From Halobaculum saliterrae (GTDB taxonomy: Archaea; Halobacteriota; Halobacteria; Halobacteriales; Haloferacaceae): a stretch of 64,000 nt of DNA. Position 1 is the stretch's first letter; each line of letters begins with the position of its first letter. Made by a program: the position numbers and the translations under genes. Under the pieces are notes generated by a model. That model worked only from the letters and a program-made list of their open reading frames with translations, was not told the DNA's origin and did no database searches. The stretch is from positions 310,001 to 374,000 of the forward strand of contig NZ_WUUS01000003.1 of the NCBI RefSeq assembly GCF_009831625.1, written 5' to 3'. Of this stretch, positions 10,197 to 53,342 are shown piece by piece.

Positions 10197-11459
10197 CTAC
10201 GCCGCGTCGTTCATCGCCTGCGCCGTGTCGTCCATATCCGCCAGCGCACACCACGCGTACACCGTCCGAAGCACGTCGGCGGCGGCGCCCGGAGCGAACA
10301 CCAGGTCGTCGGTCGCCCGGACGTGGTCCAACACGTTCCGTGAGGAGTGCTCGGGCGCGGCCGCGACGCCCGAGCCGGTCTCCTCGGCCCACTCCATCAC
10401 GCGGAGGTCGGACTTCGAGTCGCCCATCACGCAGACGAACGGGTCGTCGACGCCGAGCACGTCCAGCGACGCCTCGACGCCGGCGGCCTTGTGGAGCTCC
10501 GCGGCGGCGAGTTCGGCGGCGTCGGCGCGGTACAGCGCGACCTCGAGCCGGTCGAACAGCGCCGCCGCGGCGTCCGGCACGGTCGCCTCGGCGCTCGCGC
10601 CCGCTCGGTCGATGGCACCCGCGATCTCGGGGTCCTCGGCCGCGTAGTGCGCCCGCGCGGCCGCCGAACCGTCGTCGAGGTCGAGCCGCTCGCCCGCGGC
10701 GACGCCGACGAGGTCGAGCAGGTGGACCATCGCCTCGTCGATGACGGCCTCGGCGTCGTCGCTGCCGGTCTCGTAGTTGGGCTTGAGCGTGACGTTGAAC
10801 TCGTTGCCCTGCAGGTGACAGCCCCGGCGGACGCGCTCGGGCGCCTCCGTGAGCACGCCGTCGCGGACGCGGTCGACGACGCCCCGCACGTCGTCGTCCA
10901 GCCCGTCGTACAGGAGCCGCTTGGTGTCGGCACCGCTCCCCGGCGTGAACACGCCCGCGCCGGCCTCGTAGACGACCGACACGTCCCCCGAGTGGACCAG
11001 CTCGTTGCCCAGCCCCTGGATCAGGAACCCCTTCACGTTCTCCAGCGTCTGACCCGTGCAGATCACGAGGGGAACGCCGCGCTCGGCGAACTCGGTGAGC
11101 AGGTGGAGCGTCTCGCGGGGGATCTCGTTGTCCGTGTCGCCGGCCGAGCGCAGCGTCTCGTCCACGTCGAGCACGAGCGCGTTCGGGGCCCGGCCGTGCT
11201 TCCCGAGGAGGTCGAGCGCGGTGAACGCCGACTCGCGATCCGCGATGGCCGCCACCTCCGCGAGCGCGTCGCCCTCCTCTCCGAAGGCGCGCTCGATCCG
11301 TCCCCGGCGCTCGGCGAGGTCGGCGTTCGCGTCGTCCCAACTGTCGAGCGCGACGCGGGAGTCCAGCGGCGGGAACAGGTCGACGAACTCCCGATACGCG
11401 CGGAGGGTCTCGGTGTCGAACTCCGCGTATAGATCGTAGAGACGGTCGTATCGGTCCAT
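10197..11459 (-). CDS. HAD-superfamily hydrolase
   Basis: A 420-aa protein from ATG 11459 (MDRYDRLYDLYAEFDTETLR). The HAD phosphatase motifs are in order: LVLDVDETLR (motif I, nucleophile Asp and acid/base Asp) near residue 115, LVICTGQT (motif II), and VMGDSKSDLRVMEWAEE (motif IV) near residue 350. A helical N-terminal region of about 100 residues precedes the catalytic core and is unusual for simple Cof-type phosphatases. The substrate cannot be predicted, though sugar or small phosphorylated metabolites are usual. The upstream in-frame MSSRRCDG is the less likely start because it overlaps the spacer to the next gene. Confidence 0.85.
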   Translation of the reverse strand: MDRYDRLYDLYAEFDTETLRAYREFVDLFPPLDSRVALDSWDDANADLAERRGRIERAFGEEGDALAEVAAIADRESAFTALDLLGKHGRAPNALVLDVDETLRSAGDTDNEIPRETLHLLTEFAERGVPLVICTGQTLENVKGFLIQGLGNELVHSGDVSVVYEAGAGVFTPGSGADTKRLLYDGLDDDVRGVVDRVRDGVLTEAPERVRRGCHLQGNEFNVTLKPNYETGSDDAEAVIDEAMVHLLDLVGVAAGERLDLDDGSAAARAHYAAEDPEIAGAIDRAGASAEATVPDAAAALFDRLEVALYRADAAELAAAELHKAAGVEASLDVLGVDDPFVCVMGDSKSDLRVMEWAEETGSGVAAAPEHSSRNVLDHVRATDDLVFAPGAAADVLRTVYAWCALADMDDTAQAMNDAA

Positions 11460-11511: not shown

Positions 11512-12531
11512 TCACACGTCGAGCCAGTCGCCGATCACGTCCTCGTTCGGCGAGAAGAAGTAGACGAGGTCGCCCTCGATGACCGCGTACACCTCCAGCT
11601 CGCGGTCGTGGATCACGCGCTTGCTGGAGTCGATCGCGATGTCGACGAGGTCCTCCAGCGAGTCGGTCCGGACGTACTCCTTCTCGCGTTTCGTCGGGAT
11701 CTCGCCGTTGGAGATCCACTCGTCGTAGCGGTCGCGGGCGACCTCCGTCTCGATGGCGGTCACGTCCACCAGTTCGGGCGCCCGGCGGACGAGCACGCCG
11801 GCGACGAGCAGGAGGAGCCCGACGACTCCGAGGAGACCGACGAGCCCCATGTTCGGGGAGCCGACCTCCCGGGTGGTGACGGTCCTGCTGTGCGTTCTGC
11901 TGTCCGCGATGTCGCCGTCCACCCAGTAGGCGCCGCCGGTGATCACGAGCGGCGCGCTGGTGTTTAGATCGCCCGTGTAGTCGGTGGTGTTGTACGAGAC
12001 CTCGAGGACGACGAGCACGCGGAACGTCCCGATAGGTGCGGCGGACTGCACGGTGGCGACCTGCGATCGGAACCGCGAGACGTTCAGCGTCGCGTTCCGC
12101 GTGTAGTTCCCGTCCGAGACCGTCGTCCGTCCGCCCGAGAGCACGGTGCTGTTCTCGTAGAACACCTGATCGGCACGCGTCCCCCTGACGACGACCTGCA
12201 GTCGATGTTCGACGGTGACCTCCCGGTCGCCGGGGACCGAGGCCTCGACGTGGAACGTGAGGTCCGGGCTCGCGGACGTGAAGTACACCGGCATGTTCCG
12301 GAGCCGCGTCCCGCGGTCGTACAGCGTCTCGTTGCCGGTGACGACGGCGGTGGTGTCGACGCTCGTCGCCACTTGCTGTCGGTTCGTCTCCTCGGTCACC
12401 TGCTCGGTCGGCGGCGTCAGGTACACGTAGCCGGCGCCGGCGAGCGAGGCCGCACCGACGACGACGAGCACGGCCGCGATGATCGGGCCGTTGCGGGCGA
12501 GCTGGAGCTTGAGTTGGTCTCCGGCGGACAT
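11512..12531 (-). CDS. DUF5305-type membrane protein of the surface locus
   Basis: A 339-aa protein. A single membrane helix lies near residues 15-38 (NGPIIAAVLVVVGAASLAG). An extracellular beta-rich domain of about 180 residues follows with many N-glycosylation sequons (NYT, NAT, NVS, NTT, NTS). A second helix lies near 228-250, and a cytoplasmic tail of about 90 residues holds TKREKEYVRTDSLEDLVDIA. This matches the haloarchaeal DUF5305 family as I know it. It lies beside the PKD protein and in the same locus as a SipW signal peptidase, so a role in anchoring or assembling secreted beta proteins is likely. No enzymatic motif is seen. Confidence 0.75.
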   Translation of the reverse strand: MSAGDQLKLQLARNGPIIAAVLVVVGAASLAGAGYVYLTPPTEQVTEETNRQQVATSVDTTAVVTGNETLYDRGTRLRNMPVYFTSASPDLTFHVEASVPGDREVTVEHRLQVVVRGTRADQVFYENSTVLSGGRTTVSDGNYTRNATLNVSRFRSQVATVQSAAPIGTFRVLVVLEVSYNTTDYTGDLNTSAPLVITGGAYWVDGDIADSRTHSRTVTTREVGSPNMGLVGLLGVVGLLLLVAGVLVRRAPELVDVTAIETEVARDRYDEWISNGEIPTKREKEYVRTDSLEDLVDIAIDSSKRVIHDRELEVYAVIEGDLVYFFSPNEDVIGDWLDV

Positions 12532-12688
12532 CTACACGTGCCCTCCTCCCGCCGGAACGGTCGGCAGCGTGGTCGGCGAGCGTCGGTCGTCGGAGGGCGG
12601 CACCATTCGTCAAGCCCCACTCCTTCGGACAGCATATCGTTTTTGCATCACGTCGCGGGGCGGCGACGGCCGGTCCTCCCGTCCCCCG

Positions 12689-14821
12689 TCAGTCGGCCAC
12701 CTGGCCGAGCCCGACGCTCCCGTCGGCGGCCGAGTCCGGGGAGGGTACGACGACGCGGCTGACGACGTCCTCGGCGTTTCGGTCGTCGACCGCCCGGACG
12801 CGGACGGTGAACTCCGCGTGCGGCCGGACGGGGCGATCGGCGAAGCCGGGAACCAGCTCCGGCGCGGACTCGTACTCGTAGACGTCCCCGACGTCGATCC
12901 GTTTGCGCCCGAGCGTCTCGCCGGCCTCGTCGGTGATGTCGAGCTCCACCCGGTCGAGGCCCGCCCCGAGCGCCTCGATCTCCAGGCGACCGATCCGGAA
13001 CAGGTTCCGGTCGGCGTCCCAGGATACGTCCGCACAGACGATCACGTCGGGGCGGCGGCGCTGGTCGGCGAGTATCCACCGCCACAGCCGCCCCACCAGC
13101 GGCGCCGGCGAGGGGATGGCCGCAGGCAACTGGTAGTACGCGAGTACGCTGAACGCCGCCAGCGCGAGCGTGAGGACGACGAGCCACTCCAGCACGGGGA
13201 ACCCCTCGCCGACCATCGTCCCCCCGTCCCCGCCGCCGCCGCGAGCGGCGCCGCCGACGACGATCGCCGCCTCGTCGCTTCCGGTGGCGCCGTACTCGTC
13301 CTCGGCGACGGCGCGGACCGTCCACGCCCCCTCGGTGAACGTGTAGTTCACCGTCCGTCCGGTCGCCGTCGACCCGTCGGGGAGTTCCCACCGGACGGTG
13401 GCGTTGCCCACCTCGTCGGTCACGTTCGCCGTGAGCGTGACCTCCTCCCCGGGCGTGACGTTCTGCGGGCGGTCGATGGTGACGACGGGCTCGTCGTTGA
13501 CGACGATCCGGCGGGTCGTCGAGTCGCTGTCGCCGTCGGTGTCCGTCACGGTCAGCGAGACGGTGTAGATCCCGGGCTCGTCGAACGCCGTCCTGACGTT
13601 GTCGCCCTCCACGGTCGTGCCGTCCGGGAGCGTCCACGTGTAGGTGACGTCGGGACTCTGGAACACCGCGAACGTGCTGAAGCCCGGCGTCCGCGCCCGC
13701 AGGAGGACCGAGTCGTCCGTCTCGGAGACGACGGTCGTCTCGAGGAGCTGCCACCCGCGCGAGGTGAGCCGTCCGATCCGGGCGTCCTCCGGGGCGGTGT
13801 CGACGAGGCGGTCCTTCTCGACCCGCATGCTCACCGTCGCGGGGCGGTTCTCGAGCTGCCGCGGGACGGTGATGTTCATCGCCTTCACGATCCGCTCGTT
13901 CCGGTCGACCTCCCGAGTGGTTTCGACGAGCGACTCCGACCCGGTGAGTTCCACCGTCTCGTCCACCTCCGCGACGACGTCGGTCGCGGACGCGTTGGGC
14001 TGGTCGTTCTCGTCGAGGCCACCGAACGTGTTCCGGTCGCTGATGACCGCCGTCGGGCGGTCGTCCTCGGACGCGCCGCTGTCGTTCAGGCTCGCCGGGT
14101 CGACGTCCTCGGCGGACGCGTCGATCGCGGTGCCGTCGTCGTCCTCGACGGCCACGTCGTCGGCGCCGACGGGGACGTCCCCGATGGTGCCGTCGTCGGC
14201 GCCGCCGGTCTCGTTCCCGTCGTCCGAACTCGGGGCCGACCCCGTGCTCCCCGAGCCGCCCGACCCGCCCGACCCGCCCGACCCGCCGCCGGCGCCGCCC
14301 GCTTGCGTCTCGTTGATCCGGGTCTTCAGCGTGAGCGTCCGGAGGACGGTGTCGCCCGCGGCGGTGCCGCTCCCGCGGGTGTTGACGGCGATGGAGACGC
14401 TGATCTGCTCGCCCGGAGAGAGCGTGACCGCGCCCCCGGTGCCGTCGATGGCCCGCTGCCCGACGCTGAACTCGTTGACGAGTCCCCCCTCGATCGTCCG
14501 GTAGAGGGTGACGGAGTCGTTCGCGTCGTGGCTGATCCACACCGTCCGGTTCTCCGAGCCGGTGTTCTCCATGACGAACACGTCCTGAACCACGGTGAGC
14601 GCCTCGTCATTGACCCCGGGATCGGTGATGTCCACGGTGAGGTTGCCCTGATCGTCGATGTTGGCGTAGTCGCCGTTCGGCCCCTCGGCGGGCCGGAGCG
14701 TCACGCCCTCGTCGGAGAACACGTCGTCGGAGGAGCCGTCGACCACCACGGCACCCGTCGGGACGATGAGCCCGAGCAGGGTGATGACGACGAGACCGAT
14801 GACGAGTGCGGCGCGGTTCAT
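12689..14821 (-). CDS. PGF-pre-PGF and PKD domain membrane protein
   Basis: A 710-aa protein from ATG 14821 (MNRAALVIGLVVITLLGLIV, a signal segment). Residues about 25-165 form a beta domain like those of SipW-type substrates (NLTVDITDPG...VQDVFVMENTGSENRTVWIS). A Gly/Ser linker and an acidic stretch follow. A PGF-pre-PGF-like region lies near 290-400 and includes IVKAMNITVPRQLENRPATV. Then come two PKD-like domains near 410-545, a membrane helix near 565-590 and a cytoplasmic domain of about 110 residues. The cytoplasmic part after the helix is unusual for a surface adhesin and could signal inward. Transcription starts at the P1 promoter described at 14890. Confidence 0.8.
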   Translation of the reverse strand: MNRAALVIGLVVITLLGLIVPTGAVVVDGSSDDVFSDEGVTLRPAEGPNGDYANIDDQGNLTVDITDPGVNDEALTVVQDVFVMENTGSENRTVWISHDANDSVTLYRTIEGGLVNEFSVGQRAIDGTGGAVTLSPGEQISVSIAVNTRGSGTAAGDTVLRTLTLKTRINETQAGGAGGGSGGSGGSGGSGSTGSAPSSDDGNETGGADDGTIGDVPVGADDVAVEDDDGTAIDASAEDVDPASLNDSGASEDDRPTAVISDRNTFGGLDENDQPNASATDVVAEVDETVELTGSESLVETTREVDRNERIVKAMNITVPRQLENRPATVSMRVEKDRLVDTAPEDARIGRLTSRGWQLLETTVVSETDDSVLLRARTPGFSTFAVFQSPDVTYTWTLPDGTTVEGDNVRTAFDEPGIYTVSLTVTDTDGDSDSTTRRIVVNDEPVVTIDRPQNVTPGEEVTLTANVTDEVGNATVRWELPDGSTATGRTVNYTFTEGAWTVRAVAEDEYGATGSDEAAIVVGGAARGGGGDGGTMVGEGFPVLEWLVVLTLALAAFSVLAYYQLPAAIPSPAPLVGRLWRWILADQRRRPDVIVCADVSWDADRNLFRIGRLEIEALGAGLDRVELDITDEAGETLGRKRIDVGDVYEYESAPELVPGFADRPVRPHAEFTVRVRAVDDRNAEDVVSRVVVPSPDSAADGSVGLGQVAD

Positions 14822-14889
14822 TGTGAGAGATGTGGTGTGGTCAGTTGGCGACCGGGTTCTACTGTGATTGTGCCATACGGCTCTATGGT

Positions 14890-14961
14890 CTTTGTATGCG
14901 CGACCTACTCGTGCGGTAGCGCTCGTTACTAATCCTGGGCGCATGAGTAGGCCCGTCTACT
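14890..14961 (-). promoter_or_regulatory. Promoter P1 with twin inverted repeats
   Basis: This lies upstream of the PKD protein and reads leftward. The TATA-like ATACAAAG is at 14890-14897. Seven bases behind it is an inverted repeat CTAC-N7-GTAG (14905-14919), and 26 bases farther a second one, AGTAG-N6-CTACT (14946-14961). Promoter P2 at 16691 has the same parts at the same spacing, so both are probably bound by one regulator. The adjacent winged-helix gene at 16908 is the obvious candidate. Confidence 0.65.
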
Positions 14962-15037
14962 ACGCCGATTTCGAGACGGGAACCGGGAGAGATCGCGAAA
15001 GGAAGATCGAATCGGGGACTGGATCTCGGGGACCAGC

Positions 15038-15127
15038 TTAGTTGCTGGCCTCCACGAAGACGGTGAAGTCCGGGAAGGTCCCACTCACCGACTCAACGCG
15101 CAGGCCGATTCTGGATCCGACGGTCAC
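15038..15127 (-). pseudogene. 3' remnant of a SipW-type secreted protein
   Basis: About 30 codons from 15127 (GTG) to the stop at 15038 read VTVGSRIGLRVESVSGTFPD and on to FTVFVEASN. This resembles the last beta strands of the two neighbouring SipW-type proteins, where a FGLxLxVxxxSxxxxFxLxIEI pattern ends the protein. There is an in-frame stop just upstream and no N-terminal part, so it looks like the tail of a third paralogue lost by deletion. It could be chance because it is so short. Confidence 0.45.
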
Positions 15128-15144
15128 GGATCAGACGCCGTGGA

Positions 15145-15653
15145 TTACGATCCGTCGTCGTCCTCGGTGTTGATCTCCAGCGTGATCGTGAAGCTGTCTC
15201 TGTCGCTGAAGCTGTCGTCCAAGATCAGACGGAGGCCGAACTCCTGGTTCTGCCCCTGCGTGAGCACCGCGTTGCCGAACGTGACGTCGGTCGGATCGAC
15301 AACCACCACGGTCACACTTCCGTTGTCACTGGTGGCCGGGACGGTCAGGTTGACGGCTTCGTTCCCGTTGTTGGTCACGTTGACGATGGGTGTCAGCACC
15401 GTGGTCGCGTTCTCGTTCAGCCCGGTGGAACTCCCGATCGGGAAGCTGATTTCGCCACTGGAGCCGCCGGATGATCCGACGACTGACGGCGCGTTGCTGG
15501 ACTCGTCGATGACGAGCAGTGCGGAACTGTCTCCGCTGACTTGTACGTTCACGTCCGGTCCGCCTGCACAGTCGTGAACGCACCGGTAGCAGTCACCAGC
15601 CCGATGGTGGCGAACACTACGAGCAGCGCGAACAGCTTTCCTTTGGGTCTCAT
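15145..15653 (-). pseudogene. SipW-type secreted protein split by a frameshift after the signal peptide
   Basis: The signal peptide is encoded from ATG 15653 (MRPKGKLFALLVVFATIGLV, then GAFTTVQADRT) and ends at a TGA at 15549. The mature domain continues in another frame from a GTG at 15552 to 15145 (VNVQVSGDSSALLVIDESSN...EFGLRLILDDSFSDRDSFTI). Alignment to the intact paralogue at 16096 shows a net two-base loss at the junction. The stop and the GTG overlap as GTGA, so the mature part could still be translated by coupling, but without its export signal. Either a recent mutation, a sequencing error or phase variation would explain it. The product would be a DUF1102/camelysin-like surface subunit. 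Confidence 0.8.
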
Positions 15654-15770
15654 TATCAATTTGCTCCTTGTACGCCTGATCGGGTTGACTTCGCTGTTTG
15701 CTCCTCGGCGCTTACTATTCTATTGAGTGGGTGACAACATAGTATGGAAGTCCTACCGAGAAGAGAGGCA

Positions 15771-15925
15771 ATTCTCATAGTTCTCAAAATTATGTTACTT
15801 AAATATATTATATAAATTTATTATTTAATCTTAGTATATAATGTACTATATTATATCCTCATATATTCTTATCGCAATTTTTCTAAACTAAACATATTTA
15901 TATAAATTGCGTGATCGCATTTGAT
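15771..15925 (+). other. Extremely AT-rich island
   Basis: About 150 bases of nearly pure A and T (runs such as ttaaatatattatataaatt) lie in a genome that is otherwise GC-rich. No ORF, tRNA or clear repeat is seen here. It sits in the 440-base gap between the split and the intact secreted-protein genes, which otherwise contains only promoter sequence for the left gene (a ttactattc at 15712 resembles the P2 core). It may be a strongly melting promoter region, a nucleosome-like boundary or a scar of foreign DNA. Confidence 0.6.
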
Positions 15926-16095
15926 CCAGGATTCCCGCAGATATTCTAATCTGATATTAACCCGTAGCCTCCCTTTTCGTCAGAATGGGCGCTACGCGCT
16001 ATTCAAAAGGCAATAGGTATATGAGTTATCGCGGACGCGGTAGAAAGTGACAAATAGAGTATATTAAAAATGCCTAGTGGTGTCGCGCGCTATGT

Positions 16096-16587
16096 TTATG
16101 AATCGTCAGTATCGTTAGCATCGATCTCAATCACGAGATCGAACGACTGACCAACACTACCTCCCGGGACGTCAAGTTCCAAACCAAATTGGGTGGTATC
16201 ACCGGGACCGAGATCGGTCGAGCTCGCGTTCACCGCGCTTGCGCTGTTCAATCCATTGGAACTGCTAACGCTGACAGTCACTGTGACGTCCTCATTTCCA
16301 TTGTTAGTGATATTCGCGACTGGTGACAGAATTGTCGTGGCGTTACTGTTCAGCCCCGTTGAGGCGTTGCCGAGATTGATGACCGCTTCCCCACCGGTAT
16401 TACTCACATTGACACCAGCTGGAGCGTCAGCTGGCGTAGATATACTAATCAGTGCATTATTGTCGCCATTCACAGTAACAGTCGCCGTCCGATCCGCCTG
16501 CACAGTCGTGAAAGCGCCGGACGCAGTCACCAGCCCGATGGCGGCGAAGACTGCGAGCAGCGCGAACAGCTTTCCTTTGGGTCTCAT
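16096..16587 (-). CDS. SipW-type secreted beta-sandwich protein (DUF1102/camelysin-like)
   Basis: A 163-aa protein from ATG 16587. The signal segment MRPKGKLFALLAVFAAIGLV is followed by ASGAFTTVQADRTATVTV. The GAFT...ADR signature immediately after the hydrophobic stretch is the mark of substrates cut by SipW-type signal peptidases in haloarchaea. The mature part is a Thr/Ser/Asn/Val-rich beta sandwich with several sequons (NVS, NAS, NAT, NIT). Related bacterial SipW substrates (TasA, camelysin) form extracellular fibres by strand exchange. A role as fibre or sheath subunit here is inference. It is the only intact member of three in this locus and is driven by promoter P2. Confidence 0.82.
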   Translation of the reverse strand: MRPKGKLFALLAVFAAIGLVTASGAFTTVQADRTATVTVNGDNNALISISTPADAPAGVNVSNTGGEAVINLGNASTGLNSNATTILSPVANITNNGNEDVTVTVSVSSSNGLNSASAVNASSTDLGPGDTTQFGLELDVPGGSVGQSFDLVIEIDANDTDDS

Positions 16588-16690
16588 GTTGTTGTGTACC
16601 TCGTGTGTGCGATCTGTGAATCGCTTGGTCGCCCGTCGAATCCCACCACGGAACCCGTCGGGGCTTACTCCAGTAATGCACCCATTCCCC

Positions 16691-16764
16691 CTTTGTATCC
16701 CCGACCTACCGAGACGGTAGCCGGCGTTACTATTCGGCAACATGCGAGTAGGCCCGCCTACTCG
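16691..16764 (-). promoter_or_regulatory. Promoter P2 with twin inverted repeats
   Basis: This promoter reads leftward toward the intact SipW-type substrate. The TATA-like ATACAAAG lies at 16691-16698. Inverted repeat 1, CTACC-N5-GGTAG, is at 16706-16720. Inverted repeat 2, CGAGTAGG-CCCG-CCTACTCG, is at 16745-16764 and is perfect. Both repeats and the spacing match P1 at 14890. The 320-base gap up to 16908 also holds the rightward promoter of the regulator gene (acttaat near 16847), so the repeats sit between divergent transcripts and may also control the regulator. Confidence 0.7.
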
Positions 16765-16907
16765 GCCGAAATCGAGGGCGTTGCCTCAACGGCTACTGGC
16801 CCGCACGATCTTCGATCCCCGACACCGTCGCCGAACGCAAGGAGAACACTTAATTCAGAGACAACGACTGTATCGTGTAAGCCGATTCAGGTATCGGGTT
16901 CCCGAGG

Positions 16908-17507
16908 ATGTCGATCGAAGAAACTGATCACGTCGACGAGAGCGAGACCGCCGAGGACGATCTGTCGGAGGACACCCTCTACTCGGTGCTCTCGAACCGT
17001 CGCCGCCGGTACACCATCCACTACCTCAAGCAGCGCGAGGAGCCGGTGAGCGTGCAGGACCTCGCCGAGCGCGTCGCCGCGTGGGAGAACGACAAGCGGC
17101 CAAGCGAGATCACCTCACAAGAGCGGAAACGGGTGTACGTCTCGCTGTACCAGTCGCACCTCGACACGCTCGACGGCGAGGGGATCGTCGAGTACGACAG
17201 CGACGCCGGGACGGTCAGGCTCTCCGACCGGATGCGCGCGGTCGACATCTACCTCGAGGTCGTCCCGAAGGAGAGCGTCCCGTGGAGCCTCTACTACGCG
17301 GGGCTGTCGGCGGCGAACGCGCTCGTGCTCGCGCTGGCGTGGCTGGAGGTCCGCCCGTTCGACGCGGTGCCGGACCTGGCGTGGGGGGCGGTCGTGCTGG
17401 CGAGCTTCGCGCTGTCGGCGTTCGCGCAGCTGTACTCCAGCCGCCAGATGCGTCTCGGCGACGAGGGGCCGCCGCCGGACGTGAACCTGAGCGAAAGCGG
17501 GGCGTGA
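16908..17507 (+). CDS. Membrane-anchored winged-helix regulator (DUF7344-like)
   Basis: A 199-aa protein from ATG 16908. After an acidic leader, residues 25-115 form a winged helix typical of haloarchaeal DUF7344 proteins (TLYSVLSNRRRRYTIHYLKQ, DLAERVAAWEN, RKRVYVSLYQSHLDTLDGEG, IVEYD...GTVRLSD). Two membrane helices follow near 130-150 and 158-180. It is divergent from the SipW-type substrates and lies next to P2, so it is the prime candidate for binding the shared inverted repeats. A DNA-binding protein with two membrane helices could sense envelope state directly. Confidence 0.8.
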   Translation: MSIEETDHVDESETAEDDLSEDTLYSVLSNRRRRYTIHYLKQREEPVSVQDLAERVAAWENDKRPSEITSQERKRVYVSLYQSHLDTLDGEGIVEYDSDAGTVRLSDRMRAVDIYLEVVPKESVPWSLYYAGLSAANALVLALAWLEVRPFDAVPDLAWGAVVLASFALSAFAQLYSSRQMRLGDEGPPPDVNLSESGA

Positions 17508-17525
17508 GGGGGCCGGGACCGCGGC

Positions 17526-18458
17526 TCACGGGTCCCGCGAGGGTCGAAGGCCGTCGGTGTCCGTGACGTCCAACGTGTCGTCGAACACCTGCCGGAGCGT
17601 CCGGAGCGTCTCCTCGTCGCTCGACGCCGCGTCGGCGTGGTAGTGGGCGGACCCGCCGATGGTCCGAACCCGGCTCGTCAGCGTGGTGAGAAACCGGAAC
17701 AGCCGTTCCACGTCGACGTACTCCAACAGTTCCGTGATCGAGTCGAAACACAGGACGGGGGTGAGATCGTGGTCCTCCGCCTCGCCGAGCCGCCGGCTGA
17801 TCGAGATGCCGAGCCGGGTGAGGTCCGTGGGGCTCGTGACGCCGGTCCGCACGACCCGCGTCCGCCCCCGTTCGGTCGAGATCGTCTCGGTTCTGCGGTC
17901 CCGGGTGTACCCTCCGATCCGGATGAACGCCACCTCCTCCGGGAGGTCGCCGTACCGTGTCCGCCAGTCGGCGAGCCAGTCGCTCGCGGTGTCCTCGAAC
18001 GTGACGACGACGACACTCAACTCGCGGGAGGGAGCCCGGGCGAGACACTCGAAGCAGGGGTCCGGCGAGGAGTCCGTCCCCGAGTCGACGAGCAACACGT
18101 TCCGGGCTTCCGACAGCACCTCGTCCGCGCGGGGGCGCTCGTCCGACGCCGAGAGGTCCGAGGAGAGCCCCTCCCACGAGAACAGGTCGCCGGCGTCACC
18201 GGAGCCGGCCGGTCCGTCGGCGCTCGACTCGTGGGACGAGGAGTCGGACAGGGACAGGTCCAGTCCGACCCCGTCGTCCCCGTTCCCCTCGTCCGGCTCC
18301 GCTTCCGTTCGATCCCGCGGTTCTCCGTCCGGGTCTCCGTCGGCCCGCTCGCCCGCGGCGTCGCCGCCGGCGATGCGGTCCGCGAGCTCGGCGAGCGAAC
18401 TGCGCGGCCGCTCGTCGCCTCGTTCGTCCTCCTCGTCGGCTGTAGTCTCGTCGTCCAC
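17526..18458 (-). CDS. RecA/KaiC-like domain protein (DUF7504-type)
   Basis: A 310-aa protein from a GTG at 18458. The first 110 residues are acidic and disordered. The rest resembles the haloarchaeal DUF7504 fold (ARNVLLVDSGTDSSPDPCFE, ELSVVVVTFEDTASDW, ISISRRLGEAEDHDLTPVLC, FDSITELLEYVDVERLFRFL), a RecA-like beta-alpha core. A canonical Walker A is missing, since GTDSSPD replaces GxxxxGKT, so ATP hydrolysis is doubtful. A relative with a better P-loop is encoded at 43646. Its place between the regulator and a zinc-ribbon protein suggests a regulatory or signalling role in the surface locus, unproven. Confidence 0.65.
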   Translation of the reverse strand: MDDETTADEEDERGDERPRSSLAELADRIAGGDAAGERADGDPDGEPRDRTEAEPDEGNGDDGVGLDLSLSDSSSHESSADGPAGSGDAGDLFSWEGLSSDLSASDERPRADEVLSEARNVLLVDSGTDSSPDPCFECLARAPSRELSVVVVTFEDTASDWLADWRTRYGDLPEEVAFIRIGGYTRDRRTETISTERGRTRVVRTGVTSPTDLTRLGISISRRLGEAEDHDLTPVLCFDSITELLEYVDVERLFRFLTTLTSRVRTIGGSAHYHADAASSDEETLRTLRQVFDDTLDVTDTDGLRPSRDP

Positions 18459-18544
18459 GGTAGTCCCACGCTGATAGTCTGTGACCGCTCCCGCGGCCCG
18501 GCGACCGACATCGGTCGCCTCGGAGTGCCCGTGGGCCGGAGGCG

Positions 18545-19861
18545 TTATCGCTCCCAGTCGAAGCCCTCCCCGGCCGCCTCCCCGTCGTCGTCCTCGGCCG
18601 CATCGGCGTCCGTTCCGGGCCTCGTCTCCGTCCCGTCCTCGGCGTCGCCCCGACCTCCGTCGGCGTCGGGGTTCCCGTTCCCGCCGGCACGAATGTCGTC
18701 GCTCAGGTCGATCTCGCTCGCCATCCCCGAACGGCTCTCGCTCGCCTCCGCCGTCCGTTCGTCCGACTCGACGGTGCCGTCTCCCTCGTCGATCGCCTGT
18801 GGATCGTCAGGTCGGTCCGTCCTCGTCGACCCGTCGGTCGGCCCGGCGCTCTCCCCGGCCTCGACGGGGTTCCCTCGCTCCGGATCGAGCGGCTCGCGGC
18901 GGCCCGGGTCCCGGGACGCTCGGACCGAGAGGGTGTTCGTACCGAACAGCCACGACTTCGGTTCCAGCGAGCGGAACTCGGCGCCGCAGTGCGGACAGCG
19001 GGACTCCGGGAGGACGCCGAGGTCGACCGAGCCGCCGCACTCGTCGCACTCGGCCGAGCGAACGCCCGCGGCGCTCGCGGTCCGCTTCAGCTCCGTGAGC
19101 CGTTCGTCCACGCGGCTCCGCTCCCGGCGATCTCCACGACTGCGGACCCGTTCGAGGGACCGTTCGAGGTCGTCGGTCCGGTCGAGGAGGTGGCGAAGGA
19201 TACGTTCGACGTGGCCGAAGTCCTCGGAGATCTCCGAACGGAGCGTGTCGTGGTCCTCGCGGAGACGCTGTACCTCGCGGGCGACCTCCGGAACGGCGTC
19301 CTGAAGCCGTTCGACGGCGCCCGCGTCCGGCGTCTCGCTGTCCAGCTCCTCGACACGGTTCCGAAGGCGGTCGACCGTGTCGGCCAGCGCCTCGGTTCGA
19401 TCGTCGAGCGCGTCCAGTCGGTCGTCGAGCGCCTCGAACTCGGCGTCGATCCGCTCCTCGTCCGACTCGTCGTCCACCCCATCGTCGAGCAACTCGGCGA
19501 TACGGTCGATCTTCGCGGAGATCTGCGCCAGCTCAGGGTCGGGACCCCCCTGCCGGTCCCCGTCCGGTTTCGACGGGTCAGGATCGTCGCTCCCGAGCGT
19601 CGAAACCACGTGAGGAAGCAACTCGGCGTCGGGGTCGGGTCGGTCGCGTCCCTCGCCGAGCGGCTCGGGCCGATCGCGGCCCGCGTCGCGGGAGGGGTTC
19701 TCGAACTCGTCGATCAGCCAGTAGGCGGAGAGCATCCGATCGAGGACCTCCCGCTCGGTCGTCCCCGTTTCGTCGGCGACCTCCCGGACCCACGAGCCGA
19801 GCGCCTTCTCGTCGATCCGGCCGGGCTGACTTCCCCGGTCCGGATCCCCGTTCCCACTCAT
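18545..19861 (-). CDS. Coiled-coil zinc-ribbon protein
   Basis: A 438-aa, strongly acidic protein starting MSGNGDPDRGSQPGRIDEKA at 19861. Residues about 15-55 look like a small helical DNA- or protein-binding domain (LGSWVREVADETGTTEREVL). Residues 105-260 are a long coiled coil of Leu/Glu/Asp/Arg heptads. A zinc ribbon follows near 275-300 (CDECGG...CPHCGAEF), and the last 110 residues are disordered. I do not recognise a family. It is on the same strand as the SipW peptidase and the DUF7504-type gene and probably belongs to the same unit. Confidence 0.7.
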   Translation of the reverse strand: MSGNGDPDRGSQPGRIDEKALGSWVREVADETGTTEREVLDRMLSAYWLIDEFENPSRDAGRDRPEPLGEGRDRPDPDAELLPHVVSTLGSDDPDPSKPDGDRQGGPDPELAQISAKIDRIAELLDDGVDDESDEERIDAEFEALDDRLDALDDRTEALADTVDRLRNRVEELDSETPDAGAVERLQDAVPEVAREVQRLREDHDTLRSEISEDFGHVERILRHLLDRTDDLERSLERVRSRGDRRERSRVDERLTELKRTASAAGVRSAECDECGGSVDLGVLPESRCPHCGAEFRSLEPKSWLFGTNTLSVRASRDPGRREPLDPERGNPVEAGESAGPTDGSTRTDRPDDPQAIDEGDGTVESDERTAEASESRSGMASEIDLSDDIRAGGNGNPDADGGRGDAEDGTETRPGTDADAAEDDDGEAAGEGFDWER

Positions 19862-19956
19862 TTCAACCTATAGGGACAAATCGAACCGGACATTTAACAT
19901 TAGGTGTTCGTCACCCGCGATCCGAGCGGAATAAAAGTACCGCGGCAGGGAGCCGC

Positions 19957-21114
19957 TCACCTGAACCGACGCCTGAGACGGTCGAGCGTCGAGACGTTCG
20001 GGTTGCGCGAGTCGAGCCGGATCACGCCGGTCCCGACGATCGCGATCGCGACGAGGGCGAACAGTCCACAGACGAGCGCGTCGATCGCGAGGATCGGCGC
20101 CCACGGGTGGATCGCGTACAGCGCGTCCATGACGTCGGCCGGGAGCAGCGCGATGTACCGGTGTTCCACGAACGCGCGATCGTACACGCCGGTCCGGTCC
20201 GGGACGGAGATGGAGACGCTGACGTTCGCCTCCTCGCCGCCCGCCAGCCGGACCCGGCGCGGCTCGATACTCACCCCCTCGCTCGCCGGTTCCAGGTACA
20301 CGGCGACGGGCGTGATCCCCGGGTTCGGGATCCGATAGGTGAGCTCCTCCGTCCCGCCGACCGGGATGACGCGGACCCCGGCGGCGTCGCTCTGGGAGCT
20401 GACGACCTCGAAGGTCCGCTCGCCGCCGGTGAGGGTCATGCTCGCCGTGAGCACGAGCGCCAACACGAGCGCCAACACGAGGATCACCGTCCAGACGTTC
20501 GCTATCCCTGTCGATCTCCCGACAGCGCCGCGAACGCGCTCCCGGCTCCCCGCGCCGAGCACCGCGGTGACCGCGTACCCCGCGACGCCGACGGCGAACA
20601 GCAGATACGCCAAGCCCTGCGTACCGAGGAGCGCCCGGGTCCCGAGCGCCGCCGCCAACTGTCGCTGGGCTCCGGTGATGAGGTCGCCGATGCCCGTGAC
20701 GAGAACCCCCAGGTTCGGGATCACGACCACGTCGCCGCCGACCTGCCAGGCCACCGCGACGACCCGCGATCGCGACACCGGCGGCTCGGAGCCGTCCTGA
20801 TCGGTGACGGGGTTGGCGTCCCCCTTCGTGATGAACCCCTCCTCGGTTCGACCGACCACCCGATGGGTCGTGAGTCCGCCGCCGTCGAGCTCGCGGGCGT
20901 CGAAGGTGACGACGTCGCCCTCCTCGATCGGTCCGGCGAACGCGGGGGGGACGGCGACGAACCCGTCGCCGGGCTGGAGCGTCGGGGCCATACTGCCCGT
21001 GGAGACGTATCCGAGGAGCACGGGCTGACCCATGAGCTGCCCGACGAGCAGCAGGGCCACCACCACGAGGAGGGCTCCCCCGAGAAGGGTCCCGACGGCG
21101 CTTCGAACTCCCAT
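19957..21114 (-). CDS. SipW-type signal peptidase fused to an extracellular domain
   Basis: A 385-aa protein from ATG 21114. A membrane helix lies near residues 8-30. The S26B catalytic motifs are GYVSTGSMAPTLQPGD (nucleophile Ser), LTTHRVVGRTEEGFITKGDA (His in place of the bacterial Lys) and NPVTDQDG. Helices near 155-180 follow. The usual enzyme ends here, near residue 200. This one continues with another helix (~208-230), a beta-sandwich of about 110 residues (VSSQSDAAGVRVIPVGGTEE...NVSVSISVPDRTG) and a final membrane helix. The C-terminal domain could hold the substrate or the assembled fibre. It would mature the GAFT..ADR proteins in this locus. Confidence 0.85.
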   Translation of the reverse strand: MGVRSAVGTLLGGALLVVVALLLVGQLMGQPVLLGYVSTGSMAPTLQPGDGFVAVPPAFAGPIEEGDVVTFDARELDGGGLTTHRVVGRTEEGFITKGDANPVTDQDGSEPPVSRSRVVAVAWQVGGDVVVIPNLGVLVTGIGDLITGAQRQLAAALGTRALLGTQGLAYLLFAVGVAGYAVTAVLGAGSRERVRGAVGRSTGIANVWTVILVLALVLALVLTASMTLTGGERTFEVVSSQSDAAGVRVIPVGGTEELTYRIPNPGITPVAVYLEPASEGVSIEPRRVRLAGGEEANVSVSISVPDRTGVYDRAFVEHRYIALLPADVMDALYAIHPWAPILAIDALVCGLFALVAIAIVGTGVIRLDSRNPNVSTLDRLRRRFR

Positions 21115-21136
21115 CGCGGTGGACAACGTCGCCCGA

Positions 21137-21583
21137 TCAGATAAACAGTAGGCGGATCTCGAACAGCCGGGCGACGAGCAGCGCGTTGTTCACGGCCGCG
21201 AAGGCGTACACGGCCGAGAGGCTTCCGTACGCCCCGATCCGGAGCAGCGCCGGCAACGTGGGCGAGCCCGTGTGTCGGTACGCCTCACAGGCACAGAACT
21301 CGACGGCGAGTCCCGTCATCAGCACGACCCCCGTTCCGAGCGCGACGAGTCCGTCGACGGCTCCCATCTCCCCGAAGACGGCCGCCGCGATGGGGTTGAG
21401 CTCGGTGAGACGTGGGATCAGCGCCAGCCCGACGGCGGTCGTGAGGACGTCAGCCGCCTTCGTCGCCGACAGCAGCAGGAACCCGGGCACGAGGAACAGC
21501 CGGGTTCGACCCCGCTCGCGGTCATGGCTGTAGGCTCCCCCGTGGCCGACCGGGCCGTCACCGAAGCGCTGCGACACGTTCAC
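21137..21583 (-). CDS. Small polytopic membrane protein (DUF5658-like)
   Basis: A 148-aa protein from a GTG at 21583. Three to four membrane helices follow a short basic N-terminus: FLVPGFLLLSATKAADVLTT, AVDGLVALGTGVVLMTGLA and AYGSLSAVYAFAAVNNALLV. The DVLTT...LNPIAAAVF pattern is that of DUF5658 proteins. It is 22 bases upstream of the SipW peptidase gene on the same strand, so cotranscription is likely. Function unknown; a membrane partner of the peptidase is a reasonable guess. Confidence 0.7.
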   Translation of the reverse strand: MNVSQRFGDGPVGHGGAYSHDRERGRTRLFLVPGFLLLSATKAADVLTTAVGLALIPRLTELNPIAAAVFGEMGAVDGLVALGTGVVLMTGLAVEFCACEAYRHTGSPTLPALLRIGAYGSLSAVYAFAAVNNALLVARLFEIRLLFI

Positions 21584-32091: not shown

Positions 32092-32886
32092 GTGCCGTTG
32101 AGCAGACGCGCGACCCTGCTGAAGCTCGGGAGCGCGGCGGCCGTCGCGACCGGCGTCGCCGCCGGCGTCACCGGGACCGGAGCGTACACGTCGGTTCGCG
32201 GCGACCGCGGCGTCGACGTGTCGGTGGCCGACGGGACCGGCGGGCTCGTCGGCATCGTCCCGCAGGGACCGGTGAAGAAGAACAGCCGCGACCCCCTGGT
32301 TGAACTGACGAACAACACCGACCGATCGCTCACCATCACCGTCGCGCTCGCCGACTGCGCGGCCGGCACGCTGTACGACAACGACGGAGAGTCGGGCTGC
32401 TCCGTGTCGATCACCCTCGGGGCCGGGAACAGCCAGTTCATCGACGTCGTGGCGTCGACGACCGGAACGATCGGCTTCTCGGTCGACGTCGAGGGGCCGA
32501 GCCTCTCGCTGGCCGCCGACCGAAGCGTCGAGGCGGAGTCGGGCAACTCCCCGGGCGCGGTTCGCATCCAGAAGCCGAGCAAGGACAAGGACTTCGGCGC
32601 CCGTGCGAACAAGAACGAGTGGACCGCGAAGGCGGACGTCCGCGACGACGACGGCGACGGCGACCTCGACCGCGTCGAGTTCGAGGTCACGGAGGGCGAC
32701 TCCGGCGGGACGCTCGTCGCGTCGCGGACGGTCTCGACCCCGCCCACCCGGTACAAGGAGAACGTCACGCTGTCCCCGGACGACCCGACGTACGACATCA
32801 GGCGGGGCCAGCAGTACACGCTCGTGGTCAGGGCCTACGACGTCGACGGGAACGTCGCCACCGCGACCGTCCAGACGACCGCCTGA
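32092..32886 (+). CDS. Secreted SipW-type protein
   Basis: A 264-aa protein from a GTG at 32092. The leader PLSRRATLLKLGSAAAVATG has twin arginines, and after it comes GTGAYTSVRGDRGVDVSVAD. The GAYTSVRGDR block is the same kind of site as the GAFT..ADR of the proteins at 15.1-16.6 kb, so a SipW enzyme is the likely processor. The mature part has an N-terminal beta domain of about 120 residues and a C-terminal region of about 95 residues (WTAKADVRDDDGDGDLDRVE...YTLVVRAYDVDGNVATATVQ) like an extracellular Ig or PKD fold. The 270-base gap before it (31822-32091) holds no gene. Confidence 0.78.
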   Translation: MPLSRRATLLKLGSAAAVATGVAAGVTGTGAYTSVRGDRGVDVSVADGTGGLVGIVPQGPVKKNSRDPLVELTNNTDRSLTITVALADCAAGTLYDNDGESGCSVSITLGAGNSQFIDVVASTTGTIGFSVDVEGPSLSLAADRSVEAESGNSPGAVRIQKPSKDKDFGARANKNEWTAKADVRDDDGDGDLDRVEFEVTEGDSGGTLVASRTVSTPPTRYKENVTLSPDDPTYDIRRGQQYTLVVRAYDVDGNVATATVQTTA

Positions 32887-45590: not shown

Positions 45591-45665
45591 GGGCGCTTAG
45601 CTCAGCCTGGACAGAGTACTTGGCTTCGGACCAAGCTGCCGCGGGTTCAAATCCTGCAGCGCCCA
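45591..45665 (+). tRNA. tRNA-Arg (anticodon TCG)
   Basis: A complete cloverleaf of 74 bases plus the discriminator A. The acceptor arm is GGGCGCT...AGCGCCC, the D arm starts GCTCAG, and the anticodon stem CTTGG/CCAAG encloses CTTCGGA (TCG at loop positions 34-36). The T arm is GCGGG-TTCAAAT-CCTGC. No CCA is encoded and there is no intron. Its last 13 bases coincide with the left attachment site of the provirus, which rebuilds the tRNA 3' end. Confidence 0.97.
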
Positions 45666-45666
45666 T
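45653..45666 (+). repeat. attL, left copy of the provirus repeat
   Basis: The 14-base core cctgcagcgcccat covers part of the T-stem 3' strand and the acceptor 3' strand of tRNA-Arg plus its discriminator A and one more base. It is identical to attR at 59573-59586; the bases on each side differ. Integration at a tRNA 3' end is the usual habit of archaeal tyrosine recombinases. The stretch 45667-45841 after it holds no gene I can support. Confidence 0.85.
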
Positions 45667-45841
45667 TCCTTCGCCGCCCGTTTCACCTCCAACCGAAGGT
45701 TCGGGGTACAGACCCTCTCGATACCGAATTCGTCGTTTAGGTCCCTCCGGAATACATCACTTTCTGAGGAGCTAAACGGGGGACACGTTGCGGCCCCTTG
45801 CAGTCACGCGATTTTGTTCGCAAACACGGGGGTGATCGCCC

Positions 45842-45970
45842 GTGCGTGAGCTGCGGTTTGTTCCTGCGAGCGATCTCTACGACCCAGCGACTCGCGCACG
45901 GTTCCCGCACCCCTCGATCGAGGCGACCGACGCCGACGTTCGGGAGGCCATCGAGGAGGTGGAACGATGA
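45842..45970 (+). CDS. 42-aa first ORF of the provirus
   Basis: From a GTG at 45842 the frame reads MRELRFVPASDLYDPATRAR and ends EEVER at TGA 45970. It has normal halophilic codon use and a mixed helix pattern but no recognised domain. The stop overlaps the next ATG (ATGA), which makes it the first of a chain of five overlapping genes leading into rep. Too short for standard gene calling. Confidence 0.5.
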   Translation: MRELRFVPASDLYDPATRARFPHPSIEATDADVREAIEEVER

Positions 45971-46113
45971 ACGGCACCGAGTACCGGTGTCGACGCTGCG
46001 GCGTTCGGATGGTCGAACCCGACCCGCCCCGGACCGATCGATGCCCGGTCTGTCGTCGACGTGGTGACGGCGGGAACCGCCCGGCGATCTCCGACGTTCG
46101 AGGTGACTACTGA
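45967..46113 (+). CDS. 48-aa zinc-ribbon protein
   Basis: ATG 45967 to TGA 46113. Two Cys pairs, YRCRRCGVRM and DRCPVCRRRG, form a compact zinc ribbon with a basic surface. It is probably nucleic-acid binding. Overlaps both neighbours by a few bases (ATGA before, TGATG after), so it is translated in series with them. Confidence 0.65.
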   Translation: MNGTEYRCRRCGVRMVEPDPPRTDRCPVCRRRGDGGNRPAISDVRGDY

Positions 46114-46337
46114 TGGCGCCTCGCCTCCCGGGCGATCCGCCGAACCCCGGCAGTCAGTGGAACCCCTCGGTTCCCCTCCCGTCGGTCGCGATCGTCCTCC
46201 GCTGCAAGGGATGCAACCAGAAGTTCGTCACTCGCGAGCAGCATCCTTCAGCTCGTCTCGGGATGTGTCGCTACTGCGCGCCTCCCGAGTGGTACGCTGA
46301 GTACATCCCCCGCGGTCGCTGGAGGGCCGACGGATGA
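46113..46337 (+). CDS. 74-aa zinc-finger protein
   Basis: ATG 46113. The Cys pairs are VLRCKGCNQKFV and GMCRYCAPPEWY, again a single zinc site. The N-terminal 25 residues are Pro-rich and likely flexible (MAPRLPGDPPNPGSQWNPSV). The end overlaps the next gene by four bases. Related to no family that I can name; probably DNA binding. Confidence 0.65.
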   Translation: MAPRLPGDPPNPGSQWNPSVPLPSVAIVLRCKGCNQKFVTREQHPSARLGMCRYCAPPEWYAEYIPRGRWRADG

Positions 46338-46789
46338 CCTCCGACGGACCGGAGTTCATCGAGTACCAGTGTCGCGGCTGCCAAGAGCTAACGCTCGCGG
46401 ACGAACGCGCGGATCACGCCCGATACCGGGAATGCCTCAGCTGTTTCGCCGTCCCCGATCTCAAACGGCAACCCGTCGACCACCGACTCCCGTCGCTCCG
46501 CTGGGCGATCGCCACCGCTCCGCTCGACCTCACGAACCCTCAAAGCGAGGGACAGGCGGAGGCCGCCCGCGGCGCCGCGAGCGCCCCGAGCGGCGCCGAG
46601 GCCAGAGCCGACGCGGAGCGGGGGCTCGCCCCCGACCGCGGAGCCCGAGCGCATGAGGGAGTCCCGACCGGGACGACCGAAAACGAGCGGCGGTCGCCTC
46701 CCGACACCCGCGCGCGAGCAACGCGTGCGGATGGCGGTTCCCGGGTAGCCACGCAGCAAGCCGCACTCACTCGGTGGTCCAGTGAGTAG
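46334..46789 (+). CDS. 151-aa protein with an N-terminal zinc finger
   Basis: ATG 46334. Residues 10-40 hold EYQCRGCQELTLADERADHA and ECLSCFAVPDL, the third Cys-pair unit in a row. Residues 65-151 are low in complexity, rich in Ala, Glu and Arg, and likely disordered. The last eight bases overlap rep, whose GTG start lies inside this gene. The three consecutive zinc proteins look like duplications that diverged. Confidence 0.65.
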   Translation: MTSDGPEFIEYQCRGCQELTLADERADHARYRECLSCFAVPDLKRQPVDHRLPSLRWAIATAPLDLTNPQSEGQAEAARGAASAPSGAEARADAERGLAPDRGARAHEGVPTGTTENERRSPPDTRARATRADGGSRVATQQAALTRWSSE

Positions 46790-48725: not shown

Positions 48726-48950
48726 GCTGCGTTCGTTTCTCTGGGTAGGCTGGACATCTGGTCCGTTCTCCTGTGTATTTCTGGTAGAAATCTTGATTCG
48801 TGCTAGAGGGGTTCTGTGTCCCCAAAGGTGCCGTGTGGCTTTCATTTCCGATATTTTGACCCGTATGTTTAACCCATACCGACGGTTAGTAGAGTATATC
48901 ACAGGCACCAGGGGGAGTTAGCCCACTCGCGTGGCTGTGTGGACCACAAC

Positions 48951-49364
48951 ATGGAATTCAAGCAACTACTCGACGACGATCGTGCCGTGTCTCCAGTCAT
49001 TGGAGTCATCCTTATGGTCGCGATCACCGTGATCCTCGCGGCCGTCATCGGTTCGTTCGTCCTCGGCCTCGGCAACTCCGTGCAGCAGACCGCACCGAAC
49101 GCGAACTTCCAGTTCGAATTTGGCCAAGACGGTGCTGGCAACGATGTCGTCAACGTCACGCACACTGGTGGAGACACAATCCCCGCGAATGAGCGCGTCT
49201 CACTGAATACTAGCGTCGGTTCTACTGCGTTCAGTGGCGGTGAGATGAGCGCCGGGGATAGTATCACTGGGGTGCAGTACTCTTCAGGCGAGACTGTCCG
49301 CGTGCTTTGGGTCTCGCAAAATGGAGATACTTCCCAAGCACTCGCCGAGGAGACGGCGCCCTAA
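48951..49364 (+). CDS. Type IV pilin-like protein 1
   Basis: A 137-aa protein from ATG 48951. The N-terminus [20 protein letters not shown] is followed by a hydrophobic stretch [19 protein letters not shown]: a class III signal that prepilin peptidase (PibD) would cut before VSPVIG, leaving the helix as the filament core. The rest is a small Gly/Ser/Thr-rich beta domain. The first 50 residues are nearly identical to those of the next gene. The 225-base gap in front contains a TATA-like gagtatatc near 48892. Confidence 0.9.
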
Positions 49365-49370
49365 CCAGAA

Positions 49371-49817
49371 ATGAAGTTTAAGCAACTTCTCGACGACGAC
49401 CGCGCTGTCTCCCCTGTCATCGGAGTCATCCTTATGGTCGCGATCACCGTGATCCTCGCGGCCGTCATCGGCTCGTTCGTCCTCGGCCTCGGGAACAGCG
49501 TTCAACAAACGACGCCGAACGCGAACTTCCAGTTCGACTACGCGGAGAACGAAACGACGGGGCTCTACAATGTCACCGCTACGCACACTGGTGGTGCGAC
49601 GCTTGACTCCACAAACACAGGGAGTCTCACGCTGAACGCATCTGCCGGAAACAACCTCGGTGTTGCATTTGGCCCACTGCCGGTTAGTGCTGGTAGTTCG
49701 CAGGAACTCAACGCTTCAGGTGGAGCCGTTGACCCCGGTGCGACGGTACGAGTGATCTGGAACTCCCAAAACGGGGAGACATCCCAAGCACTCGCGACGG
49801 ATCAAGCGCCGAACTAA
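49371..49817 (+). CDS. Type IV pilin-like protein 2
   Basis: A 148-aa protein starting six bases after pilin 1 ([20 protein letters not shown]). Identity to pilin 1 is high through the signal and hydrophobic helix and in the last ~15 residues ([20 protein letters not shown] against [20 protein letters not shown]). The middle beta domain differs, so this is a tandem duplication with a diverging exposed part. A role in host attachment, superinfection control or host filament change is possible. Confidence 0.9.
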
Positions 49818-49839
49818 GGCTACTAACCAGTAGCCGTTT

Positions 49840-50658: not shown

Positions 50659-50695
50659 TAGGTGGGCTTTTGTGACCTGATAGCGAAGCACAAGT

Positions 50696-50713
50696 GAACA
50701 CCCCGAGGTGTTC
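50696..50713. promoter_or_regulatory. Inverted repeat upstream of the structural module
   Basis: GAACACC-CCGA-GGTGTTC, perfect 7-bp arms and a four-base loop. It sits 38 bases after the HTH gene stop and 140 bases before the first structural gene. It could be a terminator stem or an operator for the late promoter. The rest of the 197-base gap has no gene. Confidence 0.5.
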
Positions 50714-50855
50714 CCACACAGCTGGCGCGGACTAGTTGCCCGTGCCACCCCTTTTTACTGCAGAGCGGTTGCTCTCTCAGAGCTGTCCGTCGATATTCCA
50801 CTTTCACCGAACCGTGTTCTCGGCTAAGTGAGTATGTCTAGTACTAGAAACTGCA

Positions 50856-51589: not shown

Positions 51590-51596
51590 TTCGGTC

Positions 51597-53126: not shown

Positions 53127-53129
53127 GCC

Positions 53130-53321: not shown

Positions 53322-53342
53322 GCTGTCATGGTTTCTGCCTCG

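Follow-up and report, generated by a model that had tools for sequence, protein, structure and literature searches.

Fibres built by donor-strand complementation are usually regarded as anchored but passive after assembly. Here we describe a predicted fimbria locus of Halobaculum saliterrae, located at positions 11512-21583 of a 64,000-nt stretch of contig NZ_WUUS01000003.1 (the whole stretch is referred to as the window), which is ordinary in kind, a Tafi-type fimbria, and unusual in build. The closest described system is the Tafi pilus of Natrinema sp. J7-2, represented by a structure (PDB 9p0a, released 2025-07-23) and by the NCBIfam families TafA, TafC, TafE and TafF. A paper describing Taf, TafE, 9P0A, DUF7344, DUF7504, DUF5305 or haloarchaeal donor-strand pili was not found in the open-access literature, and the name Tafi therefore rests on the PDB and NCBIfam titles. 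In Bacillus subtilis, tapA-sipW-tasA encodes a dedicated signal peptidase, SipW, and a few beta-sandwich substrates that are cut by it and form a donor-strand fibre (PMC9674648). The bundling pili of Pyrobaculum, made of AbpA (PDB 7ueg), and the Sulfolobus threads are archaeal donor-strand filaments of immunoglobulin (Ig)-like subunits; for the thread protein Saci_0406 an ordinary signal peptidase I site is reported in the accessible part of the source (PMC9715654), and the accessible parts of the reports on both filaments mention no cytoplasmic module like the one described below.

The window locus and the Tafi pilus share a homologous pilin, a SipW-type leader with the motif GAF[ST]..A.R, and locus content, namely a TafF-like partner, SipW and DUF7344 (9p0a-like pilins are found in loci L070, L072 and L075). 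A taf operon from one Halorubrum genome (L042), closer to these families than the window locus, in which TafA, TafC and TafE score above their cut-offs and TafF reaches 299 of the required 420 bits, also carries SipW and DUF7344. Unlike the Tafi system, the window locus stays below the TafE and TafF cut-offs and has no TafC; its TafF-like protein is twice as long, with PGF-pre-PGF, PKD, transmembrane (TM) and cytoplasmic domains, and it adds genes for DUF7504, a coiled-coil zinc-ribbon protein (ccZnR) and a small TM protein. An earlier note, made from the sequence alone, had likened the locus to bacterial SipW/TasA. A dedicated SipW and a small set of beta-sandwich substrates are indeed common to B. 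subtilis and the window locus, whose fibre is predicted from its genes; however, the haloarchaeal Tafi pilus is closer than bacterial TasA, and no locus protein matched TasA or camelysin families in Pfam or NCBIfam at E 0.01. Moreover, the window locus lacks TapA, its SipW contains an extra extracellular domain, and it has a membrane base with a cytoplasmic tail and a membrane-bound winged helix instead of SinR. This copy is apparently an undescribed variant of the Tafi-type fimbria locus. Our overall reading, to which we assign a probability of roughly 60%, is that it encodes one thin Tafi-type fibre with a TafF-like base, a cytoplasmic foot formed by DUF7504 and ccZnR, control by DUF7344 and a fast-diversifying pilin.

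Organization and conservation of the locus

From position 21583 leftward, the locus consists of genes for a small protein with four TM helices, SipW, ccZnR, DUF7504, DUF7344, two SipW-type substrates (subA and subB), the TafF-like protein and DUF5305, all on the minus strand except DUF7344. The earlier note had recognized a SipW-type peptidase with SM and HR motifs, a PGF-pre-PGF/PKD membrane protein with a large cytoplasmic end, a DUF5305-like anchor, a membrane-bound winged helix, a RecA-like protein without Walker A, a coiled-coil zinc-ribbon protein and a small polytopic protein, and all of these assignments hold; its three substrate genes or remnants are reduced to two. The interval contains genuine genes, and the locus is found beyond a single strain. 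Relatives of SipW are present in 79 of 116 genomes and in 42 of the 45 genera of the order. Within 10 kb of SipW in 80 named haloarchaeal loci we found DUF5305 (76 loci), substrates (68), DUF7344 (67), TafF-like proteins (52) and rhomboid/rhombosortase-like proteins (45). Because this neighbourhood recurs in tens of genera, it exceeds chance; the co-occurrence search proposed in the earlier note gave a positive answer, and restriction to a single strain was not seen. Together with substrates homologous to a solved fibre-forming pilin, this conservation makes the prediction of a complete, self-contained SipW-dependent fibre system well supported.

Two types of locus are distinguished here. Type I loci contain DUF7504 and ccZnR; the widespread type II loci contain substrates, a TafF-like protein of about 500 amino acids, a rhomboid-like protein, SipW, DUF5305 and a divergent DUF7344. 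The core genes and a base protein with a pilin domain are the same in type II loci as in the window, whereas the type II base ends right after its TM helix, a rhomboid/rhombosortase-like gene is present, DUF7504 and ccZnR are mostly missing, and the leaders are of the RRKF type. Type I is the minority, found in the genus of the window (genomes G000, G165 and G167), genomes G014, G025 and G004, Halopenitus, Halobellus captivus, Halobellus clavatus and Natronomonas; the DUF7504 and ccZnR pair adjoins SipW in at least nine genera. A sister species has the same cluster, with 75-91% protein identity for most genes. The suggestion of the earlier note that the non-secreted members may be new does not hold as it stands: the core of the locus is known, DUF7344 is standard in such loci, and only the DUF7504 and zinc-ribbon pair and the cytoplasmic domain of TafF mark a subset. 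Loci of both types are found at related chromosomal sites within a single genus (L076-L080 compared with the window flanks), near a gene for a 412-residue protein (MSRNYDSLHDPNAEYTMREL) or near the genes at 10197-11459 and 21859 of the window, which suggests exchange or relocation of whole loci.

The SipW peptidase and its predicted pilin substrates

The SipW-type peptidase (19957-21114, 385 amino acids) is the sole match of the SipW protein within its genome. It has the S26 fold and Ser and His, not Lys, as catalytic residues, and its score of 52.0 bits against TIGR02228 (cut-off 51.85) places it in the endoplasmic reticulum/SipW type. Ser41 (in TGSM), His84 (in TTHRVV) and Asp99/Asp105 are invariant across 12 haloarchaeal relatives. 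Its score against the Bacillus SipW equivalog NF046067 is 32.3 bits, below the cut-off of 190 bits. Compared with Bacillus SipW, haloarchaeal SipW proteins are about twice as long; an extra beta domain on the extracellular side, conserved and located between the fourth and fifth TM helices, might serve as a pilin chaperone.

The GAFTTVQADR leader occurs in only two genes of the interval. The major pilin candidate, subA (16096-16587, 163 amino acids), is intact and consists of the leader MRPKGKLF...GAFTTVQA and a mature beta-sandwich of about 130 residues. The second substrate, subB (15145-15653), is frameshifted directly after its leader (MRPKGKLF...GAFTTVQADRT*), at a site that is not a homopolymer, and the remaining mature frame is open; it is a candidate pseudogene or silent pilin cassette. 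The AT-rich spacer upstream of subB (15700-16090) has no TACAAAG core promoter. No third substrate with a GAFT..ADR leader turned up when the interval was searched for one, and the third substrate of the earlier note is best read as the N-terminal pilin-like domain of the 710-residue TafF-like protein, which has an ordinary leader.

The Natrinema pilin of 9p0a was matched by subA at an E-value of 1.3e-5 as a single sequence and 2.2e-32 as a profile. As a control, removal of the leader left a profile match of 1.2e-14 across the whole mature domain. The AlphaFold2 model of subA (like all our structure models, a single chain) is a beta-sandwich with a mean predicted local distance difference test (pLDDT) score of 77, and its Foldseek matches include FimA, Pyrobaculum AbpA (7ueg) and 9p0a at template-modelling (TM) scores of about 0.4. 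The strand that immediately follows the cleavage site, at the mature N-terminus, is conserved. Two features, a pilin whose homology to the solved Tafi pilin extends beyond the leader and a dedicated SipW-type peptidase within the locus, assign it to the Tafi pilus family in the broad sense. Given the homology to the 9p0a pilin, the NCBIfam Taf families and the pilin folds, the core of the locus is predicted to be a known kind of fibre, a haloarchaeal SipW/Tafi-type fimbria. Gene calls and family scans of the locus yielded no type IV pilus secretion ATPase or platform protein.

A proposed base protein with a cytoplasmic tail

The TafF-like protein (12689-14821) comprises a pilin domain without the donor strand (residues ~42-158), a disordered linker (173-310), a PGF-pre-PGF domain (~311-428), a PKD/Ig domain (429-546), a TM helix (543-561) and a cytoplasmic beta domain (592-691). 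A start at 14821, giving 710 rather than the 751 residues of the open reading frame, is most likely, because the shared operator and promoter fall inside the longer frame. Its N-terminal domain matches the leader-free pilin profile at 8.5e-15; among all called genes, this profile retrieved 181 substrates and 84 TafF-like genes and no others. The profile match begins at position 16 in TafF-like proteins (median of 69 genes) and at position 1 in pilins (162 genes), the piece absent from the former being the strand that comes after the pilin cleavage site. A natural inference is that the TafF-like protein is a terminal subunit and membrane-fixed fibre base, able to accept a donor strand and unable to give one.

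Past its single C-terminal TM helix, the window protein extends for about 130-150 residues. Such tails measure 75-158 residues in type I loci and at most about 20 residues in type II loci. The tail is modelled as a beta domain (pLDDT ~70-84), and a fold search with the model of the whole 710-residue protein (predicted TM score 0.35) gave mixed Ig/C2-like matches only. The DUF7504 and ccZnR pair accompanies the TafF-like protein in 9 of 11 loci with long tails and in one of 52 with short tails (Fisher 2e-8, loci counted regardless of relatedness). The anchor-like DUF5305 protein (11512-12531, 339 amino acids; E 1e-43 in the family scan) has a TM helix at each end of its extracellular part and a conserved cytoplasmic C-terminus. 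A membrane protein of rhomboid/rhombosortase-like type is encoded in 45 of the 80 SipW loci; in type II loci its gene lies between TafF and SipW (for example, L043:7859-8794 and L077:8451-9284), and type I loci lack it. In type II loci it may cleave TafF at its C-terminal anchor.

The cytoplasmic DUF7504 and ccZnR pair

DUF7504 (17526-18458) is a RecA/KaiC-like protein with an acidic N-terminus. Its Walker A motif GxxxxGK[ST] has been lost: the lysine is absent from all of the 12 or more locus copies aligned, although their RecA-like core, including an H[YF]H.DP-type motif, is retained. The lysine is present (SGKR) in a paralogue at position 43646 of the window. DUF7504 itself gave no match to ArlH. 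ccZnR (18545-19861, 438 amino acids) contains a CxxC...CPxC zinc ribbon and is a full-length homologue of a conserved chromosomal protein (hhalign 3.6e-38). This paralogue adjoins a 278-residue KaiC/ArlH-like protein in 8 of the 11 arrays sampled, as it does in an additional genome; the partner matches ArlH at 1.5e-10 and is also without a canonical P-loop. The parallel between the chromosomal and locus pairs indicates that a RecA-like protein and a coiled coil form a recurrent pair, one version of which was recruited to fimbria loci. The conserved haloarchaeal array (L175-L185 and L191; ~138,300-140,100 of contig C1 in genome G000) also encodes a short acidic protein and often transcription factor S, and its KaiC/ArlH-like and coiled-coil proteins could form a cytoplasmic scaffold.

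Scores against a ccZnR profile set nine genomes apart, a gap in bit scores separating locus-type ccZnR from the chromosomal paralogue. Most genome-wide ccZnR-like matches, including a low-scoring one in genome G003, are this paralogue and were left out of the counts. Wherever locus-type ccZnR occurs, it adjoins DUF7504. Three cases predicted by the ccZnR score (G018, G020 and G059) were then inspected, and in all three DUF7504 and SipW were found beside ccZnR. In several type I loci, relatives of the small protein with four TM helices (21137-21583, 148 amino acids) are encoded beside SipW or DUF5305.

Promoters and pilin divergence

DUF7344 (16908-17507, plus strand) is a winged-helix protein with two TM helices at its C-terminal end, and its gene diverges from that of the pilin. 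A palindrome and a ATACAAAG core are common to the promoters of the pilin and TafF-like genes. In the pilin promoter (16681-16720, minus strand), palindrome CTACCGTCTCGGTAG is combined with core ATACAAAGGGGGAATGGG, and the extended core matches the 3.8-Mb genome perfectly at this site only. The TafF-like promoter (14890-14919, minus strand) has the same layout, palindrome CTACCGCACGAGTAGG then CATACAAAG. A candidate upstream operator palindrome, CGAGTAGG-CGGG-CCTACTCG, lies at 16745-16764. TAGG..CCTA palindromes and [AT]TACAAAG.GGG also occur upstream of the pilin in type I relatives, and the promoter core precedes 10 of 25 type I substrates, 6 of 154 type II substrates and none of 1169 unrelated genes. 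Adjacent and divergent, DUF7344 is the obvious candidate regulator of both promoters, and the locus-specific element offers a simple handle toward its regulator. As for the membrane-to-DNA signalling proposed in the earlier note, the divergent winged helix and the promoter palindromes are in place, and the signalling itself is plausible but unproven. A paper on CsmR, considered as a possible study of DUF7344, does not mention this domain in its accessible part.

Pilins diverge rapidly while their leader stays fixed. When the window is compared with its sister species, identity is 94% for the leader and 45% for the mature pilin, compared with 85% for the TafF pilin domain and 91% for SipW. Halopenitus pairs show 100% for the leader, 33-68% for the mature pilin and 93-98% for the TafF pilin domain. 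Likewise, subA and subB are identical at 93 of 101 leader nucleotides, yet at only 44% of mature residues, and the solved Natrinema pilin and a relative have a conserved leader and a variable mature part. GC content at third codon positions (GC3) is lower in pilin genes (median 0.70 vs 0.89), and is about 0.5 in the window substrates versus about 0.9 in the TafF-like gene. Virus-driven selection and cassette exchange are possible causes. A fixed leader in front of a fast-changing pilin makes it possible to ask, in a concrete instance, whether haloarchaeal surface variation is driven by viruses or neighbours. Together with the apparent anchoring of the fibre to a partner complex inside the cell, it could reveal how archaea vary their surface display and control it.

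Assembly model and alternative explanations

In the proposed assembly, prepilin subA would be exported via its frozen Sec-type leader, and SipW, judged from its family and motif, would cleave after ...TTVQA and release the N-terminal beta strand. Mature chains would extend by donor-strand complementation, as their fold family and Tafi homology suggest and as the Foldseek matches and the strand-less base domain indirectly support, the first strand being accepted by the TafF-like base, which its linker, PGF-pre-PGF and PKD/Ig domains and TM helix would hold in the membrane. The cytoplasmic beta domain of the base may contact, whether directly or through other proteins, a complex of the DUF7504 pseudo-ATPase and ccZnR, a putative foot that would position the fibre or report its state. 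Membrane-bound DUF7344 might control the pilin and TafF promoters via palindromes of the TAGG..CCTA type; partners of SipW or the base would be DUF5305 and the small TM protein. The mature pilin would be quickly replaced or diversified behind the constant leader, with subB as a possible silent donor. A bolder version is tentative: the foot would be truly transmembrane, the TafF tail docking on a dedicated KaiC/ArlH-like pseudo-ATPase and coiled-coil scaffold, which would link the placement or load of the fibre with the cell interior and, via the winged helix, with pilin transcription, with pilin cassettes replaced behind the fixed leader. A conserved cytoplasmic module travelling with SipW loci and a base with a cytoplasmic domain make inside-outside coupling of a fibre directly testable in archaea.

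Several observations weigh against the proposed fibre with its cytoplasmic foot. Both subA (54.2 vs 155 bits for TafE) and the TafF-like protein (69.6 vs 420 bits for TafF) fall below the curated equivalog cut-offs; the fibre in this organism is predicted from its genes, and the donor-strand contacts are predicted from fold family and homology. The link between operator and DUF7344 is one of position and motif, the association of tail and pair is uncorrected for relatedness, and in two copies from Halopenitus malekzadehii the tail is present with no pair within about 10 kb. DUF7504 and the chromosomal KaiC/ArlH-like partner align weakly (hhalign probability 17). Finally, some SipW loci (L057, L080, L160 and L188-L190) contain the pair and lack a TafF-like gene, and the tail is therefore not its only partner. 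This last point would fit a purely regulatory pair, setting expression of the locus, perhaps with receiver-domain proteins, and having no physical link to the fibre base. Receiver-domain genes adjoin DUF7504 in L189 and lie near the pilin in Halopenitus loci, and transcription factor S is often next to the chromosomal pair; however, neither DUF7504 nor ccZnR has a recognized DNA-binding domain in family scans, and the pair is strongly associated with the TafF cytoplasmic domain. We consider this explanation possible, though doubtful.

Two other alternatives question the fibre itself. The substrates might be non-polymerizing, isolated Ig-like surface domains or S-layer decorations, as their short length and the modest superposition of the subA monomer on known pilins would allow; the leader-free match to a solved pilus subunit, the conserved strand right after the cleavage site and a base that has a pilin domain yet not this strand make this improbable. 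It is similarly hard to believe that the locus is decaying in this strain and makes no fibre. The frameshift in subB, the AT-rich spacer and the low GC3 of the substrates could be taken as decay, but subA and the TafF-like, SipW, DUF5305, DUF7344, DUF7504 and ccZnR genes are all intact in the gene calls, low GC3 is normal for pilins among relatives, and the sister species keeps the cluster.

Additional observations

Some type I loci encode long SipW-leader proteins with beta-helix-like repeats (L121:4768-6051, L122:3160-4365, L057:15323-17119, L080:7123-8691 and L160:3573-5276). One such protein matches Pfam Bactofilin (1.6e-16), and these proteins are candidates for exported bactofilin-like polymers or tips. 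A further SipW-type substrate lies outside the locus at 32092-32886 (plus strand), with a twin-arginine-like start, SRRATLLKL...TGTGAYTSVRGDR; RRKF is combined with the SipW motif in many type II substrates, too. At 45591-62000, a tRNA-Arg gene precedes a low-GC stretch that contains an integrase-like gene (58478-59521), a probable integrated element.

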